From positions 1 to 61,298 of the forward strand of contig CACBBU010000008.1 in assembly GCA_902537615.1 (NCBI GenBank): a DNA stretch of 61,298 nucleotides, read 5' to 3'. Made by a program: the position numbers and the translations under genes. Numbering within the stretch: the stretch's first letter is position 1; the number at the start of each line of letters is the position of its first letter. Under the pieces are notes generated by a model, which was not told the DNA's origin, made no database searches, and was given only the letters and a program-made list of their open reading frames with translations. This document shows, piece after piece, positions 259 to 49,437 of this stretch. Source of the DNA: an uncultured Alphaproteobacteria bacterium (GTDB taxonomy: Bacteria; Pseudomonadota; Alphaproteobacteria; Methylaequorales; Methylaequoraceae).

Positions 259-648
259 ATGACTGATAGTATTAAACAACAATTTGAAGTTTACAGCAAC
301 GCATTAAGAATTAGAAACAATAGAAATGAAATTCTTGCTTCTAATATAGCTAATGCAGCAACCCCTAACTTTAAGGCTAGAGACTTAGATTTTGATGTAG
401 AATTAGCTAACGCTTTAAGTGTTGGTCCTTTAAAAACTTCTTCAGAGGGACACATTGCTCTGGCATCCAAAAATCTTCCTGGAAAAGTTCAGTATAGAAA
501 ACCTCTGCATCCTTCAATGGACGGCAATACTGTTGAATTATCAATTGAACAAACAGAATTTGCTGAAAATACTATGAGATACCAAACAACACTAAATTTT
601 ATTAATTCTAAACTATCAGGTTTAATGAGTGCAATTAGAGGCGAATAA
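259..648 (+). CDS. flgB: flagellar basal-body rod protein FlgB
   Basis: FlgB is a proximal rod subunit that carries torque from the MS ring to the hook; it is exported by the flagellar type III system. At 129 aa it has the usual family length. The N-terminal rod motif LASNIANAATPNFKARDLDF (about residues 26-45) is typical, and the C-terminal helix (EFAENTMRYQTTLNFI) matches the coiled rod-protein end. It is the first gene of the flgBCDEF operon, about 23 bases downstream of the likely sigma-54 start site. Its stop overlaps the flgC start by one base (TAATG), indicating coupled translation. Confidence 0.95.
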   Translation: MTDSIKQQFEVYSNALRIRNNRNEILASNIANAATPNFKARDLDFDVELANALSVGPLKTSSEGHIALASKNLPGKVQYRKPLHPSMDGNTVELSIEQTEFAENTMRYQTTLNFINSKLSGLMSAIRGE

Positions 649-1061
649 TGGATATTAAAAATGTATATAAAATAGCACAAAGGGCAATGGGTGCTCAACT
701 TGTAAGACTTAATGCAATCGCAAGTAATTTAGCTAATGCTGATAATATTGCCCAGAACCCTCAAGATGCCTATAAACCAGTCAAACCGGTTTTTGAAACT
801 AAATATTTTGATTTAATTAGAAAAAAAGGAATTTCCACTGTGGATGCCGTGACTGTTCAAAAAATGGATATTGAACCAATTAAAGTTTACAAGCCTGGTC
901 ACCCTATGGCTGATAATGAAGGTTTTATATATAAAGCCCCGGTTGATGTCGAAGAGGAGTATGTGGATATGCTTGAAGCGTCAAGACAATACCAAAATAA
1001 CGTAGAAGTAATTTCAACAATTAAAGCTTTAATGCTTAAAACTGCAAATATGGGAAAATAA
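648..1061 (+). CDS. flgC: flagellar basal-body rod protein FlgC
   Basis: FlgC is a second proximal rod subunit that assembles next to FlgB. The protein is 137 aa, normal for the family. The N-terminal LNAIASNLANADN motif (about residues 21-33) and the C-terminal YVDMLEASRQYQNNVEVI helix are characteristic of the FlgC/FlgG group. The HPMADNEGFIYKAPVDVEEE stretch is a FlgC hallmark. In many alphaproteobacteria fliE follows flgC; here flgD follows after a 13-base gap, so fliE must lie elsewhere. Confidence 0.95.
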   Translation: MDIKNVYKIAQRAMGAQLVRLNAIASNLANADNIAQNPQDAYKPVKPVFETKYFDLIRKKGISTVDAVTVQKMDIEPIKVYKPGHPMADNEGFIYKAPVDVEEEYVDMLEASRQYQNNVEVISTIKALMLKTANMGK

Positions 1062-1074
1062 TCTGAGGTAAATT

Positions 1075-1779
1075 ATGACTGACATTAATAAATCATCTGA
1101 ACAATCACTTAATGCAATACTTTCAAAACTTGGAGTAAAAACTCAAGAAGAAGTTAAAAAACAAGGAAATAAAAATACTCTAGGACAAGAGGATTTCCTT
1201 AAACTTATGACTGCTCAGCTTCAGAATCAGGATCCTTTTGCCCCTATGGATAATGGAGACTTTATTGCCCAAATGGCACAATTTTCTACTGTGACAGGGA
1301 TTACTGAAATTAACAATAATTTGACAAATTTGGGTTCAAAGCTTGAACCCAATAGAGTGGCAACAGCTGCTCAATTTTTAGGACATTCTGTTTTAGTCCC
1401 TGGCCAGGTTGCTAGTCCTGATGATAATGGAGAAATTCATGGTGTGGTTGATCTACCAGGATATTCAAACGATGTTGGTCTAACTTTTACTAGTCCATCT
1501 GGAGAGATTGTTCATACAATGAATTTAGGTTCCAATGAAAAAGGTTTAGTTGGATTTAGCTGGGTAGATATACCTGAAGACATCAAAAAAGATAAAACAC
1601 GCTTAACCATTCAAGCGTATGCTGGAAATGGTGAAGCAAGCGACGGTTTGACAACAGCCGTTTATAACAAAGTTATTGCTGCATCCGCACCAAAAAATAC
1701 AGAGGATGTAATTTTAGAAACAAAAGATTATGGAGAAATCTCAGCTTCTGATGCAATAAAATTTAAATCCAATGATTAA
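1075..1779 (+). CDS. flgD: flagellar hook assembly (capping) protein FlgD
   Basis: FlgD caps the growing hook and guides FlgE subunits into place. The protein is 234 aa, normal size. The conserved N-terminal region LGQEDFLKLMTAQLQNQDPF (about residues 36-55), followed by QMAQFSTVTGI, is diagnostic. The middle and C-terminal part has the FlgD Tudor/Ig-like layout (a GVVDLPGYSNDVGLTFTSPS segment). A Shine-Dalgarno sequence (TGAGGT) sits before the ATG at 1075. It lies between flgC and the hook gene, as expected for its role. Confidence 0.95.
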   Translation: MTDINKSSEQSLNAILSKLGVKTQEEVKKQGNKNTLGQEDFLKLMTAQLQNQDPFAPMDNGDFIAQMAQFSTVTGITEINNNLTNLGSKLEPNRVATAAQFLGHSVLVPGQVASPDDNGEIHGVVDLPGYSNDVGLTFTSPSGEIVHTMNLGSNEKGLVGFSWVDIPEDIKKDKTRLTIQAYAGNGEASDGLTTAVYNKVIAASAPKNTEDVILETKDYGEISASDAIKFKSND

Positions 1780-1801: not shown

Positions 1802-4800
1802 ATGTCATTTTATACAGCACTTACAGGACTTAACGGAGCACAATCGGATATTTCGGCAACGTCAAACAATATCGCAAACGTTAACACGACCGGTTTTAAA
1901 AGGTCGAGAGCAGAATTTGGTGATATATTTGCAACGTCTCCATTACAGAACGCTTCTTCCTCTATTGGTTCTGGTACAATCTTAAAAAGTGTTAAGCAGC
2001 AGTTTACTCAAGGTAACATTACCTCCTCACTTAACGTGCTTGATATGGCAATTTCTGGTCAAGGTTTCTTCTCCTTAAAACCATCTTTGACCTCTGGACA
2101 AACAGTTTATACACGTAACGGTTCATTTAACGTTAACAACGATAGATATGTAACTGACTCATCAGGACAGTTTCTTCTAACTTTTCCAGTTAACGATGAT
2201 GGATCTGTTACTGCAAAAGATTTAGTTAGTGCCGTTCCCCTTCAATTACCAGTTACATCAGGAACACCAAAAGCAACAACGTCAATTGAATTAGGTGTGA
2301 ACGTTTCTGCAACCAGTGATGTTATTACAGATGACCCACAATTTGCAAGTGGTTATGTTTTTAATCCAAAGGACCCAAGTACTTTTAATAATTCAACATC
2401 AATAACAATCTTTGATGATTTAGGTAATCCAACAATTGCAACAATTTTTTTTATAAGAACTCAGGCTGCTTCAGCATCTGACCCTACAAACAAGTATGAA
2501 ACAAGATTAGTGATTAATGACACTGTTATTGATCCAGATTTAGTAAAAGCAGTTAATGATACTCAACAACCAATCTTTATTGATCGTTTTGGACAACAAA
2601 CAACAAAAGTTCCAGATGATAACTATTTCTTAGAAGGAAAAGGTTCACCACTTTATAAATTAGATGATTTGAAAACTTTAGTAGACTCTACTCCAGCCAA
2701 AGTAACTGGTGAATCAAGTAGCTTTGACTTTGGTGAAGAAGGTGACAAAACAGTGACAGTTGTTACCGATCCAATGAAATTTAATTCAACTAGGGAAAGT
2801 GGTGATACTACATCAAATGTTTATTGGGGTACAAACTTTATGACCATAAATGTTGATAACAGTGACCAACCAGTAAATATTGATATTAGACCTGGTTCTT
2901 ACAACGCTACACAGCTTGCCACAGAAATTCAAAGATCAATAAACGCTGCTTACGGTGACGATAAGAAGATACAGATTGTTCAAAACGTTGATGATACTTT
3001 GACTATTGACTTATTAAAGTTAAATGCTGATGGAACATCAACAGGTTTGACAACTGCTGTGTCAGTTGACCTTTTAGGTGCATCTTATGTATCTACTAGG
3101 GAAGGAATTGTACTTACTGGCGCATCACCTGATTTTACCAGAGAGCAATTTTTAGCTCATACACAAGCTCGTCTAAACGCTTCACTGAATGAATATGCAG
3201 TTAACCCAACCAATGATACCGTTGATAAAGCAGCTGCATTAGGCGTTGATAACAGTTTATTTTACAGAGCTTCAGGTAAAACAATAGGAACAATTCTAGA
3301 CCAAAACCAAGTCTTTAGTTTTAATCATAATCAAGCTAAGTCAGCCTCTAACACAGCTTCTAATACAAACACTGAGTTACAAGCAAATGGTGCAAAAGCA
3401 ACCCAACGCTTTATGACGTATTCTTATTATGGAAAAACCCCACAATTAAATGTTTATGATACGCAAACAGCTATGGCAAACAATCCTGGTGGTGCAACAG
3501 CTAATGCAAACCAATCTATAGTTTATGATCAATCAGAAAATACGGTTAGATTCCATTTTGGAACAACTAACCCCCCTCTTTCAGCTAATTCAAAAATTAG
3601 ACTCATGGGAAATTTTTATAACGCAACAGCTGACACAACAAATGGTGACTTTGTTAATGGACGTGAATTCACGGTTGCCTCAGTTGGTTCTGAAAGTGTT
3701 GGTGGAGCTCTAAATTACTATGTTGAGTGCAGTACTGCGGGTATGAATTTTCCTGACAGTGATTTTTCTATAGCTTTAAATGCTAATAATGTAGCCAAAA
3801 TTTACAGTGCAGAATCAACTGCAGTAGAAGCCTATTTTGAGGGAGCTCAAAATGTTTATAAAGGCGCAACTGAAAATTTCAGTAACAAAAAAATTGTTAT
3901 GAGAGAAATTGGAAATGCTACTAAGCATGATTATACTAATGCACAAATGGTCACAAAAACCACAGCAGCTGGGGCAGCAAAAAATATTATTGATGATTTA
4001 GCTGAGGTATTCACACTAAAAGATGACAAAACTTCTTCAGGAACAACTTTAGATACCTTTGAGCTGACTGGAATAGGTGAAAATACAAATGCTGCAAGTA
4101 GAGACTTGTATCTTAATGGTGACGGAACAACTGCAGATAAAACTAAGCCAGCAACACATTGGGTTGACGAAAAAGATCCTCCGATTGAAGTAACTTATGA
4201 TGTTTTAAATCAAAGACTTCAATTTGAAGTAGACAGAAACTTAATTGGAACTGGTACTAACAGTAACTTTAATAGTTTTAAAATCTTCGGTGCTTCAACA
4301 GCAACAACAACCAATAATTTGGGTATCCCAACTGCTGATGATACAACTGAAACACTAATTCGTGGTGGTGAAAAATTTTCTGCGGCGACATTTGTTGCGG
4401 ATGGTGCTGAGATTCAGCTTAACGATAAAAGATTTGGAGTTAAGGTTGCCTATAACAGTGAGTTAAAAGCTTTTGAATTTAGTAGCGGAACTACGGGAGA
4501 AACAATTGCAGCTAATGGTGCCATTGGAGTAACCACAGCACAAACTGCATCTAATATTGCTGTAGGAAGATATTTATTGTCAACAACAGATGGTTCAGTT
4601 ACAGATGCTACAGATTTCTTTGGTGGAGATAACAACCTTCTTGGAGTTGGTGTGACAAAAACAAATGCCATAACAACAGCAGCAAAAGGTTTAGCAGCTC
4701 AACCGGCACAAGCAATTGGTGCATCAGCTACTGAGGACTTAACTCAAGTGTTTAGATTAACAACACAAGGTAATGAAAATATATTTAACGTATCTGTAAA

Positions 4801-5713
4801 TGGTATTGCGGGTGTCATTGAAATTCCACAAGGTTTTTATGTTGGAACAACATTAGCAGAGGCTCTTCAACAAAGAATTAATCAGATTGAAGACTCTTCA
4901 GGAAACGTTGGTGGAGGTATTACTGTAAAATACGACTCCACTACAAATAATTTCACATTTACTAATGGGACAACAGGTAGAGACTCAACAATTAAAGTCA
5001 GAGGATCTAATAAGTTTGGCCTTGACGATGTTGATTTGGGTGTTGGATCAGTACCTCAAATTTATAATTTACAACAAGCAACTAACGCAGATGGACTAAA
5101 CTTATTTGTTGATGCCAATGGTAACAAAGTAACCACACCTCCTGCCAACCTGGTTAGTGGCTTTTTCCCACTTTACATTGATGAAGGAGAGTTAACATTT
5201 GATAAATCTGGTAGAATCCTTAGTCCAAAACAAGGAGTTCATTACGAGAAACAAGAAGCAGGTTTCAGTATTGATCTTGACATTGACTTTACAAAGTCTA
5301 CCCAGTTAGCTCAACCATTCTTCGTGTCAACAGTTAATCAGGATGGTTTTACATCTGGAAGATTAGATGGTCTTGAAGTTGATGCAAATGGAACAGTTAG
5401 AGCAAACTACACGAATGGTCAGAACAATCCACTAGGAAAACTTGTTCTAGCGAATTTTAACAACCAAAATGGTTTGAAACAGATCGGTAACGCAACTTAC
5501 GTTGAAACTGCTGTATCAGGTACTGCAACGGTTGGTGAAGCAGGTGCAGAGGGTTTTGGAACTGTATTATCAGGTTCATTAGAAAGATCTAATGTGGATA
5601 TTACTGAAGAACTTGTGAACTTAATTACAGCACAAAGAAACTTCCAAGCAAACGCTAAATCAATTGAAACTACTGCTGCTACTACTCAAGCAATCGTTAA
5701 CATAAGAATGTAA
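1802..5713 (+). CDS. flgE: giant flagellar hook protein FlgE
   Basis: FlgE polymerises into the hook, the universal joint of the flagellum. The conserved D0 motif TSNNIANVNTTGFKRSRAEF lies near residues 20-39, and the C-terminal D0 helix (VNLITAQRNFQANAKSIET) ends at residue 1303. Most FlgE proteins are about 400-550 aa, so roughly 800 residues are extra, inserted in the surface-exposed middle. The insert contains at least two segments resembling flagellar hook-IN/beta modules (about residues 338-405 and 990-1080). It is rich in T, N, D and A and nearly cysteine-free. Base use looks less AT-rich than in the rest of the window. A GGAG Shine-Dalgarno precedes the ATG. Confidence 0.95.
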   Translation: MSFYTALTGLNGAQSDISATSNNIANVNTTGFKRSRAEFGDIFATSPLQNASSSIGSGTILKSVKQQFTQGNITSSLNVLDMAISGQGFFSLKPSLTSGQTVYTRNGSFNVNNDRYVTDSSGQFLLTFPVNDDGSVTAKDLVSAVPLQLPVTSGTPKATTSIELGVNVSATSDVITDDPQFASGYVFNPKDPSTFNNSTSITIFDDLGNPTIATIFFIRTQAASASDPTNKYETRLVINDTVIDPDLVKAVNDTQQPIFIDRFGQQTTKVPDDNYFLEGKGSPLYKLDDLKTLVDSTPAKVTGESSSFDFGEEGDKTVTVVTDPMKFNSTRESGDTTSNVYWGTNFMTINVDNSDQPVNIDIRPGSYNATQLATEIQRSINAAYGDDKKIQIVQNVDDTLTIDLLKLNADGTSTGLTTAVSVDLLGASYVSTREGIVLTGASPDFTREQFLAHTQARLNASLNEYAVNPTNDTVDKAAALGVDNSLFYRASGKTIGTILDQNQVFSFNHNQAKSASNTASNTNTELQANGAKATQRFMTYSYYGKTPQLNVYDTQTAMANNPGGATANANQSIVYDQSENTVRFHFGTTNPPLSANSKIRLMGNFYNATADTTNGDFVNGREFTVASVGSESVGGALNYYVECSTAGMNFPDSDFSIALNANNVAKIYSAESTAVEAYFEGAQNVYKGATENFSNKKIVMREIGNATKHDYTNAQMVTKTTAAGAAKNIIDDLAEVFTLKDDKTSSGTTLDTFELTGIGENTNAASRDLYLNGDGTTADKTKPATHWVDEKDPPIEVTYDVLNQRLQFEVDRNLIGTGTNSNFNSFKIFGASTATTTNNLGIPTADDTTETLIRGGEKFSAATFVADGAEIQLNDKRFGVKVAYNSELKAFEFSSGTTGETIAANGAIGVTTAQTASNIAVGRYLLSTTDGSVTDATDFFGGDNNLLGVGVTKTNAITTAAKGLAAQPAQAIGASATEDLTQVFRLTTQGNENIFNVSVNGIAGVIEIPQGFYVGTTLAEALQQRINQIEDSSGNVGGGITVKYDSTTNNFTFTNGTTGRDSTIKVRGSNKFGLDDVDLGVGSVPQIYNLQQATNADGLNLFVDANGNKVTTPPANLVSGFFPLYIDEGELTFDKSGRILSPKQGVHYEKQEAGFSIDLDIDFTKSTQLAQPFFVSTVNQDGFTSGRLDGLEVDANGTVRANYTNGQNNPLGKLVLANFNNQNGLKQIGNATYVETAVSGTATVGEAGAEGFGTVLSGSLERSNVDITEELVNLITAQRNFQANAKSIETTAATTQAIVNIRM

Positions 5714-5748: not shown

Positions 5749-6537
5749 ATGGACAGAATGGTACAAACAGCATTAAATAGTATGAAAATGCTAATGGAAA
5801 ATCAGGTCGCGACAGCACACAATCTTTCCAACCTTTCTACCCCAGGTTTTAAACAAGATGTAGTTACAGACTTCAGTTCAATTTATTTAAATAGACAAGA
5901 GGGACTTGAGCCTAGGATTGTCGCAGCGAGAGAAGTTGGAAAGTTTAGTGTTGAACAAGGAATGTTAGATAACACAAAAAATCCTATGGATGTAGCAATT
6001 AGCGGTGATGGCTATTTTGTAGTTCAACCAAATAATGCTGATCCTGCATTTTCTAGACGCGGTGATTTTAGTGTTAATGAAAATGGTGAATTACTTGACG
6101 GAGCGGGTAATCAAGTTCTTGATGCAGGAATGCAACCATTAGTAATTCCAGCTTTCAGAGAAATTAATATAACTTCACAGGGTGAAATTCTAATTCAACC
6201 AATTGCAGCTGCACCAGGTGAACTTCCAGTAAATGCAGGAACAATCGCTACTTATGTTCCACAAGAAGGAGATATCCTAAAAAAATCCCTTGATGGAAGG
6301 ATTAGGTTTGATCCCAATGTGAATGAAGATGGCACAATAGAGCAAATTCCGATTGAGCCTAATCAACAATCAAAGTTAGTATCAGGTTTTTTAGAAAAAA
6401 GTAATGTCAACGCTGTTGAAGAAATGGTTAATACAATTGATCAAATGAGAAAGTTTGAAATGCACGTTAAGTTAATTCAAATGGCAGAAGAATTAGACCA
6501 AGCGGGTACAAGTCTTTTAAGAATTCCTGGCATGTAA
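5749..6537 (+). CDS. flgF: flagellar basal-body rod protein FlgF
   Basis: FlgF is a proximal-rod subunit of the FlgE/FlgF/FlgG superfamily. At 262 aa it fits the family. The start MDRMVQTALNSMKMLMENQ and the motif HNLSNLSTPGFKQD (about residues 24-37) resemble FlgF more than FlgG, which usually begins with a different signature. The central DVAISGDGYFVVQ strand and the C-terminal EEMVNTIDQMRKFEMHVKLI helix are also typical. CAGGAG precedes the start. Its stop codon directly abuts the stop of the convergent metallohydrolase gene, leaving no spacer for a terminator. FlgG, FlgA and the ring proteins are not in the window. Confidence 0.93.
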   Translation: MDRMVQTALNSMKMLMENQVATAHNLSNLSTPGFKQDVVTDFSSIYLNRQEGLEPRIVAAREVGKFSVEQGMLDNTKNPMDVAISGDGYFVVQPNNADPAFSRRGDFSVNENGELLDGAGNQVLDAGMQPLVIPAFREINITSQGEILIQPIAAAPGELPVNAGTIATYVPQEGDILKKSLDGRIRFDPNVNEDGTIEQIPIEPNQQSKLVSGFLEKSNVNAVEEMVNTIDQMRKFEMHVKLIQMAEELDQAGTSLLRIPGM

Positions 6538-10327: not shown

Positions 10328-10436
10328 AACATTTTTTTGAACAATACTTTACATTTTCCCAATTTCTTTCCCATTTCTTTCTCCATTGGAATGGTCTTTC
10401 GCACGTTTGACAAAACTTTATTTCTTTGTTTTTCAT
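10308..10436 (-). CDS. DUF2256 small zinc-ribbon-like protein
   Basis: A 42-codon gene, found by reading the strand behind the photolyase. It encodes [18 protein letters not shown] followed by [11 protein letters not shown]. This matches the DUF2256 pattern (CxxCxRPFxWRKKW, then YCSxxC) along its whole length, so four cysteines probably bind one zinc ion. DUF2256 genes often sit beside photolyase/cryptochrome genes in other bacteria, which supports the call; the biochemical role is unknown. The ATG overlaps the stop of the upstream photolyase-like gene (ATGA, four bases), implying coupled translation. The 3' end overlaps the convergent peroxiredoxin gene by 20 bases. Confidence 0.82.
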
Positions 10437-11923
10437 GGTTTATGTGTATTTTTTTCAATGAATTCATTAGCGAGGTTTATTATTTTCTTTTTTCTATCTT
10501 TATTCATTTTATCCAATACTCTTACCATCATAGACAATCTAGGGTTTTTAACAAAAAAATCCTTATTTTTCTCAATGAATCGCCAATAAAGACCATCAAG
10601 AACGTCGCACCAATCATCTTTTTTAAAATCCATCATTTTTCTAAAATATGATGAACCACAGATATAAGGTTTGGTTGAAAATATTCCACCATCACTGAAT
10701 AAACCCATTCCATAAACATTTGGATACATCACCCATTCTGAAGAATCCATGTAATGTTCCATAAACCATCTGTAAGCATTAGAGGGTTCAATTTCACATA
10801 AATTCATAATATTTGACTGAATCATTAAACGTTCAATGTGATGTGTCCAGGCATATTTAGAAGCATTTTTAATTGAATAATCTAAGGGGAAAATACCTGT
10901 TGTTCCATCATACCAACTTTTTTTCATTAATCGTTTATTATTAAAGAAATTAGACTGTTCAAATTTTTCATCATAGTTTTGATAAACTCCTTTAATAAAC
11001 TCTCTCCATCCAGCTATTTGTCTAAAGTAACCTTCCAATGAATTAATTTTTACTTTGTTAATAATTTGTTTTAGTTTTTCAATTACTTCTCCAGGAGTGA
11101 TAAGACCTAAATTCATTAACGGGCTTAGTGAAGAATGGAAAAGAAAATTATCCCTTTGATCAACTGCATCTTCATAGTCACCAAATAAATTGATTTTTTT
11201 TTCTATAAAATGATTAAACTTTATCCAAGCCTCTTGTCTTGTCGTACATATCCAAAAATCATCGGTAGAGCCAACATGATCTTTAAATTTTACTTCAATA
11301 ATTTTTTTGAGATATTTTGTGTGTTCCGTTTCTTTTGATTTAAATTGTTTAGGAAAATCAAATTCTTTTGGAATTTTCTTTCTATTTTCTTCATCAAAAC
11401 TCCATTTACCACCAGTTGGATTATCATTTTCATCTACCAAAAAATTATTTTTTTTCCTCTGTAATTTATAGAAGTTTGCCATAAATGGTTTTTTTGTACT
11501 TGATAGATAGTTTTTAAATTCAGCTCTTGAGGTTAAAAACATTGGAGAGGACAAGTAATTTAACTCTACATTTTTCAACTCAGATAAAATTTTTTTTTCA
11601 AAAGGCTTGTCTTCAATTTCAAAAATAGAAATAGAATTAATACTCATTTCTTTAATTAGCTTTTTTAATTTGTCCGTGTAGGTCTCTTCAAAGTCGTCAT
11701 CCTCTATTTTTTTGTAAATAACTTCAAAATCGTTTTTTTCAAGTTCATCACGAAATGATCTCATTGCCGACAAAAATAGTAGAATTTTTTGTTTATGATG
11801 TTTCTCATATGTACATAAACCTAAGTCCTCTGAGAGAAAAAAAATATGATCTTTCTTAAACTTTTGAAGAAAAGAAACATTAAATAGTTGATTACCCAAT
11901 ATTACAAAAATTTTTTTTTTCAT
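10433..11923 (-). CDS. cryptochrome/photolyase-family protein of the FeS-BCP (PhrB-like) group
   Basis: A 496-aa flavoprotein of the bacterial (6-4) photolyase/cryptochrome group. The N-terminal Rossmann-like domain (about residues 1-130) is followed by an all-helical FAD domain with [49 protein letters not shown] and LYWRFI. In characterised members four cysteines hold a 4Fe-4S cluster. Here the expected TGxxC and YCxxC positions read TGIFPLD and DFKKDD; only [10 protein letters not shown] keeps a Cys near the last position. The cluster is therefore probably absent. Likely role: light-driven repair of (6-4) photoproducts, or a light sensor. It overlaps the upstream photolyase by one base and the DUF2256 gene by four. 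Confidence 0.85.
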
Positions 11924-13341
11924 TAGTTTTTCTTTCTTAATTGCTCATAGGTTGAAAGTGCTCTTTGTCTAGATTCTTTCAAATCAACAATTGGATGAGG
12001 ATAATCTTTTCCTAATTTAAAATTCAAATTTGTTAAAATTTCATTTGGGCATTCCCACGGACTAAAAAGAAATTTTATAGGTATATTTTTTAACTCGGGT
12101 ACATATTTTCTAATATATTCTCCACTTGGATCAAATTTTTGGCCTTGAGTTACAGGGTTAAAGATTCTAAAGTAGGGAGTTGAATCAGTACCCGTGCCCG
12201 CTACCCACTGCCAACTAGCCGAATTACTTGCTGCATCTGCATCAAAAAGGCAGTCCCAAAACCATTCTTCTCCCCTCCTCCAATGAATAAGTAAGTTTTT
12301 TACCAAAAATGAGCTTACAATCATTCTTGGTCTATTGTGCATGTATCCAGTTTGCCAAAGTTCCCTCATACCAGCGTCAACAATTGGTATTCCGGTAAGA
12401 CCCTTGGACCATTTTTTAAAATTAATTGGATCTTCCAACCATTTAAAATTATCAAAACTACTTTTTAAATTTTTCCTCTGAATATAAGGAAAATGGTACA
12501 ATAAATAGTAGGCAAATTCCCTCCACCCTAATTCACTTTTAAAAACTTCAACATCATTATCCCCTACATTTTTTAAGCTGTTAACTTCATACCAAAGAGA
12601 ATTGGGAGAAATCTGGCCCCAGTGAAGATAAGGGGATAGTCTAGATACATTTTTTTTATTTGGAAAATTTCTGCCCTCTGAATAATTTTGAACTCCATGT
12701 CTGAAAAATGACTTCATAATTTCAATTGAAGTATCTTCACCAACTTTCCATTGAGATAAAATTTGATTCTCCCATTTTTTGTTTTTAAGTAAATCTAAGT
12801 CAGCGACATTTGTAAGTCTAAAATCATGATTAAAAAAGTTAATCTTTTCGGATTTTGGTACCCTTGGGTTTGGTGCTAACAAGCAGCCTCTTTTATAAAA
12901 TGGTGTAAAAATTTTATAAGGGGTACCATCATTTTTTAAAATTTCCCAAGGTTCCCATAACAAAGAACCGTTAAATGAATTGACTTTTATTTTTTCATTT
13001 AAATAAATCTTTAAACTTTTATCTCTCTTAATCATCCATGGTTCATAGCAACGATTCCAAGAAATTTCTTGGACATCAAAAAAATCAATCAATTCATCCA
13101 AACATTCTTTAGGGTTTCCTTTTAAGACAATCAAGTTTCCATTTAACTGCTTTTTTAAATATTCAAGTGAGTAATTTAACCAAACCTTACTTGCAGAGCC
13201 AAGTTTTGGATCAGAGTTGATTTCATCAAAAATATAAATCCCTAGAACATTATCATAGTTTTTGGAAAGATAATTTAAAGATGGGTTATCGGTGGTTCTT
13301 AAATCATTTCTAAACCAATGTATTCCAATGTTTTTTTTCAT
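11923..13341 (-). CDS. phrB: deoxyribodipyrimidine photolyase (class I CPD type)
   Basis: A 472-aa photolyase that uses blue light and FADH- to split cyclobutane pyrimidine dimers. It starts with the antenna-domain motif IHWFRNDLRTTDNPSL. The FAD-binding core has SRLSPYLHWGQISP, ELGWREFAYYLLYHFP, GMRELWQTGYMHNRPRMIVS and the run DADAASNSASWQWVAGTGTD with FRIFNPVTQG, all strongly conserved. It is the first gene of a tightly packed light-repair operon with the PhrB-like protein and DUF2256. Such a cluster fits a cell exposed to sunlight. Class I CPD specificity is inferred from these motifs; a cryptochrome role is less likely. Confidence 0.92.
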   Translation of the reverse strand: MKKNIGIHWFRNDLRTTDNPSLNYLSKNYDNVLGIYIFDEINSDPKLGSASKVWLNYSLEYLKKQLNGNLIVLKGNPKECLDELIDFFDVQEISWNRCYEPWMIKRDKSLKIYLNEKIKVNSFNGSLLWEPWEILKNDGTPYKIFTPFYKRGCLLAPNPRVPKSEKINFFNHDFRLTNVADLDLLKNKKWENQILSQWKVGEDTSIEIMKSFFRHGVQNYSEGRNFPNKKNVSRLSPYLHWGQISPNSLWYEVNSLKNVGDNDVEVFKSELGWREFAYYLLYHFPYIQRKNLKSSFDNFKWLEDPINFKKWSKGLTGIPIVDAGMRELWQTGYMHNRPRMIVSSFLVKNLLIHWRRGEEWFWDCLFDADAASNSASWQWVAGTGTDSTPYFRIFNPVTQGQKFDPSGEYIRKYVPELKNIPIKFLFSPWECPNEILTNLNFKLGKDYPHPIVDLKESRQRALSTYEQLRKKN

Positions 13342-48678: not shown

Positions 48679-49437
48679 ATGGAAGTTATCTTACTAGAAA
48701 GTTTAAATAAACTAGGTGGTGTTGGTGATCTAGTTACTGTGAAAGATGGATATGCAAGAAACTATCTGATTCCTCAGAAAAAGGCATTACGTGCAAATGA
48801 TGAAAATAAAGAATACTTCTCAAAAATAAAACAAGATTTAGTTGAAAAAAATAAAAAGATAATTGAGGAAGCAAAATTAACAGTACAAAAAATTTCTAAG
48901 TTAGATGTTACTTTTATCAGAAATGCAAGCGACAATGGGCAACTATATGGTTCGGTTTCACCTAAAGATATTTCTAACTATTTCGTTGAAAAAAAGGTAA
49001 ATATAAAGCCATCAAATGTTAATTTTCATGATGCGATAAAAAAAATTGGTATATATGAAATTAATATTAGATTACACCCAGAGGTTGGCTGTAACTTGAA
49101 AATAAATATTGCAACCTCAGAAGAAAATGCAAAAATTCAAAAAGATGAGCTTCAAAAACCAAGAAAAAAAGAAGATGACGCTAATTTAGAAAAAGTATCC
49201 GCTGAAAAGAATGTATCATTAAATTCCTCAGAAAATAACGAAGAAAAAAATATTACACAAAAGACTAAAGAAAGAATAAAAAAAGATACGCCTAAGAATG
49301 AGGAAAAAAAACTTGATGAAACAACTGTTAAAACAAAAACTAATGAAAATAAAATTGAAAGCGAAGCTGAGTCAACAGAAAATAAATTAAATAAATCAGA
49401 AAAGGAAAGGTTAACAAAAAAAAAAGATAAAGAATAA
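48679..49437 (+). CDS. rplI: 50S ribosomal protein bL9 with long charged C-terminal extension
   Basis: bL9 stabilises the L1 stalk base. The first half is standard: MEVILLESLNKLGGVGDLVT, VKDGYARNYLIPQKKALRAN and the C-domain (GQLYGSVSPKDISNYF, LHPEVGCNLKINIA). The family ends near residue 148, but this protein continues to 252 with a Lys/Glu-rich, low-complexity tail that is probably disordered. The tail is in frame and uninterrupted, so it is not a sequencing error at the stop. It closes the rpsF operon and is followed by a 13-base T run. Confidence 0.95.
   Translation: MEVILLESLNKLGGVGDLVTVKDGYARNYLIPQKKALRANDENKEYFSKIKQDLVEKNKKIIEEAKLTVQKISKLDVTFIRNASDNGQLYGSVSPKDISNYFVEKKVNIKPSNVNFHDAIKKIGIYEINIRLHPEVGCNLKINIATSEENAKIQKDELQKPRKKEDDANLEKVSAEKNVSLNSSENNEEKNITQKTKERIKKDTPKNEEKKLDETTVKTKTNENKIESEAESTENKLNKSEKERLTKKKDKE

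Follow-up and report, generated by a model that had tools for sequence, protein, structure and literature searches.

What kind of flagellar hook could be built from a hook protein about three times longer than usual? The question is raised by a 61,298-nucleotide stretch of DNA (hereafter the window; positions 1 to 61,298 of contig CACBBU010000008.1, assembly GCA_902537615.1) from an uncultured alphaproteobacterium of the family Methylaequoraceae, in which the hook gene flgE encodes a protein of 1303 amino acids (aa). Four observations bear on the answer: the anatomy of the sequence, its conservation throughout the clade, the purifying selection acting on it and the association between the sizes of FlgE and of the junction protein FlgK. 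The answer that appears probable, though far from assured, is a hook of ordinary length, which would be about 32–36 nm wide and serve as a stiffer joint, and to which FlgK would have been enlarged to match.

A true FlgE with a standard core

The gene is an open reading frame at positions 1802–5713 of the forward strand, with an ATG start codon and without internal stops, and it lies in an intact cluster in the order flgB, flgC, flgD, flgE, flgF. The FlgE chains listed from the PDB have 402–403 aa, about one third of the length found here. The N-terminus carries Flg_bb_rod (PF00460; residues 3–33, 33.3 bits) and the C-terminus Flg_bbr_C (PF06429; residues 1257–1300, 54.6 bits), both above the Pfam cut-offs, and the D1 domain of FlgE/F/G (PF22692) is matched at residues 83–127 (41.9 bits). 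A preliminary description, made from the letters of the sequence, had proposed a giant hook protein of this size with normal D0 ends, and both statements hold.

The FlgE_D2 domain (PF07559, 51.4 bits) is matched in two pieces, one before and one after an extra region of approximately 840 residues, which is therefore nested inside D2. The protein passes the NCBIfam subfamily model TIGR03506 (276.1 bits against a cut-off of 70.25) and misses the cut-offs of the FlgE equivalogs (370.8 bits where 472 are required, and 370.1 where 400 are); these are length-tuned models, not a biological definition, and the missed cut-offs are probably the cost of the split match. Its domain matches thus identify the protein as a genuine FlgE built on the usual D0-D1-D2 core, and its incorporation into the hook is predicted.

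Layers nested within D2

The inner arrangement of the extra region (Table 1) is revealed by a shorter relative. The 794-aa FlgE of a genome outside the class Alphaproteobacteria (G617, locus L126) is colinear with residues 1–387 and 874–1302 of the window protein, at 40% identity to each part, and is without exactly residues 388–873. This pattern suggests that residues 388–873 are a second insertion (layer D4) made within an earlier one (layer D3). Forms of about 1547 aa look like carriers of a third insertion, and the nested size classes of about 430, 794, 1303 and 1547 aa suggest stepwise growth, in parallel with the proposal made for giant flagellins. Recent duplication at the DNA level was rejected as a source of the extra region, since merely 15–32-nucleotide matches in two or three copies were found.

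Relatives were collected by a scan of species genomes, which gave 215 stretches encoding them; 71 loci were kept. The alignment comprises 64 distinct full-length proteins of 1239–1547 aa; it leaves out two ordinary FlgE proteins (L029, L030), a 733-aa frame that is probably broken (L084), loci L002–L028, partial frames and identical sequences, and a reduced set further leaves out near-identical rows and L057, whose sequence contains X. Conservation is strongest in the D0-D1 core, and most of the insert is conserved, not hypervariable. Insertions of at least 15 residues relative to the window protein are present in 15 of the 64 proteins, all of them after residues 519–525 or 722–773.

An AlphaFold2 model of residues 130–1215 has a mean predicted local distance difference test score (pLDDT) of 72.2, most of residues 300–1070 being confident; residues 425–790 modelled alone reach a mean pLDDT of 81.4 and a predicted template modelling score of 0.83. 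Two modules within the insert resemble known folds. Residues 965–1085 give Z 6–8.8 over 93–116 residues to FliD (D2-D3), flagellin D2 and phage sheath domains, and residues 553–671 give Z of about 8 to an endosialidase barrel and 7–7.7 to E1 FCCH domains. The second look of this structural comparison covered 997 chains; the Z values of both modules are borderline and silent on function, and a Z below 8 may mean merely a common arrangement.

The insert profile at about 965–1070 also matches two proteins from outside the class (G686 and G666; E values 1.1e-6 and 1.3e-5), which look like FliD as recognised by eye from their sequences. By profile, short stretches within residues 860–945 and 345–425 resemble the 965–1085 region (95.8% over 21 columns and 70.9% over 23 columns, respectively). 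None of 45 members was matched by the flagellin hook IN motif (PF07196) at E ≤ 1. The suggestion of at least two hook-IN-like modules in the middle of the protein is therefore plausible by fold (965–1085) and remote profile, and not by the Pfam model.

When both models were compared with the PDB by Foldseek, no whole domain found a convincing counterpart, and in a viral structure library one match fell under E 0.001, with poor superposition. Matches to Med14, flocculin and similar Pfam families in the insert were set aside as scattered and of doubtful meaning.

Distribution, base use and selection

Full-length giant FlgE is encoded in 24 of the 32 genomes of the family, the window's own included (20 with frames of 1262–1309 aa and four with 1539–1551 aa). 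Only pieces of it are present in four more genomes, and FlgE of the giant type was not found in the remaining four, which are incomplete (65–80% complete). By their record titles, relatives belong to SAR116, Ca. Puniceispirillum and PS1, to a genome labelled HIMB59 and to single-cell genomes; the PS1 strain IMCC14465 and the Rhodobacterales strain LSUCC0031 are among the carriers. The longest frame elsewhere is 1576 aa (G242). The preliminary description had reasoned that the same size in close relatives, if without modular structure, would speak against its proposal; the relatives are indeed as large, but modules are present.

In a sample of the class, the insert occurs in 10 of 385 genomes, spread over four families. 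In a sample of the phylum, its profile is matched in five of 398 genomes, throughout in the window's own and partly in the four others. FlgE_D2 frames outside the giant group reach 1071 aa among 133 genomes of the class, so large FlgE arises elsewhere too.

One explanation of the insert, recent horizontal transfer or base use driven by expression, was offered because the region looked less AT-rich than the window. The guanine-plus-cytosine (GC) content is indeed higher in flgE (36.8%) than in the window as a whole (29.2%), but similar values are found in the conserved ends of the gene (36.4 and 38.1%), in flgD (35.6%) and in flgF (36.8%). GC content at third codon positions in the insert (0.18–0.20) is like that of other genes of the window, and the codon likelihood is even along flgE. 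An even codon-use profile matching the neighbouring genes had been named in the preliminary description as a finding that would speak against its proposal, and the even profile observed defeats the transfer idea. The rise in GC is an effect of codon positions 1 and 2 and is not specific to the insert. The enrichment of the middle in T, N and D is real but slight (12.6, 9.1 and 7.1% against 10.9, 8.6 and 6.4% in the ends).

The giant form, whole or partial, is present in 28 of the 32 family genomes, and the family is a clade both in the FlgE tree (support 1.0) and in the tree of flgB, flgC, flgD and flgF (0.92). Codon use, family-wide presence and the trees led to the rejection of recent transfer of the insert, and this explanation, in either of its forms, is regarded as very improbable.

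Older exchange is a separate matter. The first 150 residues of FlgE (window 1802–2251) are 83–89% identical to the window protein across orders, against 32–61% for flgB, flgC, flgD and flgF. Either an exceptionally constrained core or exchange of flgE between lineages could account for this, and neither is ranked above the other. Well-supported splits conflict between the FlgE tree and that of its neighbours (10 of 38 and 11 of 42). With 10 of 38 FlgE splits in conflict, an old exchange of flgE or of the whole cluster between orders may have taken place.

The median ratio of nonsynonymous to synonymous substitution rates (dN/dS) is 0–0.044 in all five regions of FlgE (26–28 close pairs per region, many from one genus). 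The insert is native in its codon use and under purifying selection. The dN/dS values bear on the possibility of neutral growth, in which the domains, gained in one event and harmless on the outer face of the hook, would have persisted although they do nothing themselves. The outer sites do take insertions freely, as the 15 proteins mentioned above indicate, and a Salmonella chimera bearing D3/D4 of Campylobacter jejuni still swims, according to PMC5069557. Layer D4, however, has a median dN/dS of still just 0.044, and genomes of only about 1.2–1.4 Mb retain the 3.9-kb gene in nearly all members of the family. Neutral growth is therefore considered improbable.

FlgK and the other flagellar proteins

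The genome of the window (G000) also encodes a giant FlgK of 1790 aa (contig C17, L133:8639–14008, reverse strand), which scores 254.1 bits against the TIGR02492 cut-off of 170.75. The FlgK model is matched in all 64 genomes examined, and its cut-off is passed in 57. FlgK measures 1407–1795 aa in 17 of 17 giant-FlgE genomes that have it in full length, against 450–988 aa in 44 other entries; an additional copy of 1186 aa is present in G070.

The Spearman correlation between FlgE and FlgK lengths, kinship ignored, is 0.78 over 61 entries and 0.44 within the 44 ordinary ones. It was calculated without three genomes whose FlgK fragments were judged, by coordinates or length, to run off their contigs (G008, G010, G017), without G086 (no FlgK above the cut-off) and without the second FlgK of G070. 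The two systems of G067 form separate entries, and in genomes with several FlgE frames one, usually the larger, was picked by hand.

In the window's genome the flagellins (264–524 aa), FlgL (427 aa) and FliD (552 aa) have ordinary sizes, and a giant flagellin (over 1000 aa) was not found in the family, where the longest flagellin frame is 577 aa. The flagellin sizes in G000 led to the rejection of an enlarged filament as an explanation of the large hook protein. FliK frames are mostly 420–462 aa; a long hook is therefore unsupported, and the ordinary size of FliK points to an ordinary hook length.

Between flgL and flgK lies a gene of 306 aa (L133:7707–8624, reverse strand) with a weak likeness to glycosyltransferases of the SP_1767 family (22.1 bits, cut-off 290.75). 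Its product could modify the hook or junction proteins.

In the window's genome and in G009, FlgK contains three stretches that resemble phage tail-fibre and baseplate (baseplate-wedge) families (phrog_38233, 2.4e-21; phrog_2885, 3.8e-23). These matches are the starting point of the main rival explanation, in which decoration of the surface is the principal role of the outer FlgE layers, and even more so of the tail-fibre-like FlgK repeats, and mechanics comes second; the decoration would help the cells attach to particles or algae, or would fend off phages that bind to flagella. The likeness of the FlgE barrel module to a phage endosialidase barrel, the gathering of variation at two sites of layer D4 and the weakly glycosyltransferase-like gene would agree with it. 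The FlgE insert, however, has no match among PHROG families, the structural Z of about 8 is borderline, and the insert is mostly conserved and under purifying selection. Decoration as the chief role is thus judged rather unlikely, and surface binding by FlgE layers or FlgK repeats is putative. That the inserts of FlgE and FlgK share an ancestor is not claimed, as the profile pairs between them are weak (75.5% over 49 columns; 25%).

Within the class, FlgT, which marks a reinforced basal body, is encoded in 18 of 20 giant-FlgE genomes and in none of 44 others; the two exceptions, the window's own genome included, are 79% complete. In the relative G009, genes for an LPP20-type lipoprotein, FlgT, FlgA and FlgM lie upstream of flgB (L131:12635–15830), and FlhA as well as FlhF-, FlhG- and FliA-like genes are found nearby. 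Such a set is typical of polar gammaproteobacterial flagella. The FlhA of a relative is 52 and 47% identical to that of a few alphaproteobacteria, about 40–46% to that of non-alphaproteobacteria and about 33–38% to that of most of its own class. This pattern of identities would agree with a flagellum of an unusual type that may have been imported.

Features of the window

Table 1. Coordinates in the window of flgE, its parts and the neighbouring flagellar genes.
Feature	Positions	Strand	Basis
flgB, rod protein	259..648	+	PF00460 20.9 bits (cut-off 20.7)
flgC, rod protein	648..1061	+	name from sequence and place (no domain scan)
flgD, hook cap	1075..1779	+	PF03963 83.8 bits
flgE, giant hook protein, 1303 aa	1802..5713	+	open reading frame, Pfam, NCBIfam
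FlgE residues 1–264: N-terminal half of D0, D1, D2	1802..2593	+	Pfam, split FlgE_D2
FlgE residues 265–387: first half of extra layer D3 (approximate boundaries)	2594..2962	+	colinear with 794-aa FlgE of G617
FlgE residues 388–873: extra layer D4 (approximate boundaries)	2963..4420	+	absent from 794-aa form; AlphaFold2 models
Hypervariable site 1, residues 500–540	3299..3421	+	relatives' insertions after residues 519–525
Small beta-barrel module, residues 553–671	3458..3814	+	predicted fold, borderline
Hypervariable site 2, residues 720–780	3959..4141	+	longer relatives: 63–267 further residues
FlgE residues 874–1100: second half of extra layer D3	4421..5101	+	40% identity to G617 FlgE over 874–1302
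FliD/flagellin D2-like (hook-IN-like) module, residues 965–1085	4694..5056	+	Z 6–8.8; profile matches to FliD-like proteins
FlgE residues 1101–1303: C-terminal half of D2, D1, D0	5102..5710	+	PF06429, second FlgE_D2 piece
flgF, rod protein	5749..6537	+	PF06429 60.3 bits, PF22692 47.9 bits

Elsewhere in the window, two further observations were made by eye: a gene whose product resembles ribosomal protein L9 extended by a long tail rich in Lys and Glu (48679–49437, forward strand; 252 aa in total) and two adjoining photolyase/cryptochrome-like genes (10433–13341, reverse strand).

The predicted hook

In the favoured reading, the FlgE core would polymerise into an ordinary hook of 11 protofilaments and of ordinary length, while the two nested layers added within D2 (D3, then D4, sometimes more) would point outward. 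If the cross-section is scaled to chain length, a protein of 1303 aa would give a hook 32–36 nm across, compared to the usual 18 nm, and one of 1547 aa would give 35–40 nm. The extra layers would probably make additional contacts between neighbouring subunits, resulting in a stiffer and stronger joint, as in Campylobacter. FlgK, which is seated on the end of the hook, would presumably be enlarged in the same lineages to fit its width. The width, the stiffness and this reason for FlgK growth are predictions.

Several points weigh against this picture. The wide hook is predicted from genes, and the truncated D1/D2 parts of the 130–1215 model are poor. The link between FlgE and FlgK sizes spans four families, with statistics that ignore relatedness. 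In some other alphaproteobacteria FlgE of 988–1071 aa is accompanied by FlgK of just 648–792 aa, so a large FlgE is not always joined by a giant FlgK. Outside the class, FlgT is found in 13 of 66 genomes, and FlgE there is ordinary-sized; for this reason the idea that a high-torque basal body called for the giant hook was rejected, and FlgT is kept as a lineage marker rather than a cause.

Extra FlgE domains within D2 are already known; in the open-access papers searched, no description was found of a hook protein of this size, of its spread through the clade or of its joint enlargement with FlgK, nor of a giant FlgE or FlgK in SAR116, PS1 or related marine Alphaproteobacteria. The enlargement of FlgE and FlgK, while flagellin, FliD, FlgL and FliK remain ordinary, offers a natural experiment on hook width and the matching of the junction. 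A bolder proposal, considered improbable, is that abundant ocean Alphaproteobacteria have a distinct type of flagellum, with a hook roughly double the normal width and a ring of tail-fibre-like FlgK arms at the end of the hook that faces the filament, the junction serving also to bind surfaces or block phages besides being a mechanical joint.

Comparison with known hooks

In the hooks described in PMC5069557 and PMC5097172, the core forms a tube of 11 protofilaments and inserted domains form outer layers; the diameters given are 18 nm for Salmonella, 24.5 nm for Caulobacter and 28 nm for C. jejuni. These precedents, together with the place of the insert in D2, agree with the thick hook surface foreseen in the preliminary description.

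FlgE of C. jejuni (851–865 aa, D0–D4; PMC5069557, PMC5097172) likewise has a D0-D1-D2 core with nested, outward domains in D2, and its extra domains have been linked to a stronger hook. When D3/D4 were deleted, more than 90% of the cells bore short stubs, and broken flagella were seen as well. The 865-aa protein was termed among the longest in 2016 (PMC5069557), but the giant FlgE of the present clade is half again as large; the window protein is about 440 residues longer, and its sequence match to the Campylobacter protein is restricted to the ends; a structural comparison that covered 997 chains likewise revealed no kinship between the extra domains of the two proteins. Caulobacter crescentus, also an alphaproteobacterium, has D3 within D2 and a wider hook, but a single extra domain (PMC5069557), and the window protein scores 120.8 of 750 bits against the NCBIfam model flgE_Caulobact. 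The 794-aa FlgE of G617 represents the form without layer D4, in a genome where no FlgT match was found. In giant flagellins of marine Gammaproteobacteria, an axial protein has also grown internally and stepwise to give a thicker structure (PMC6248924); there it is the filament protein that is enlarged, whereas here the hook and junction proteins are enlarged and the flagellins are ordinary.

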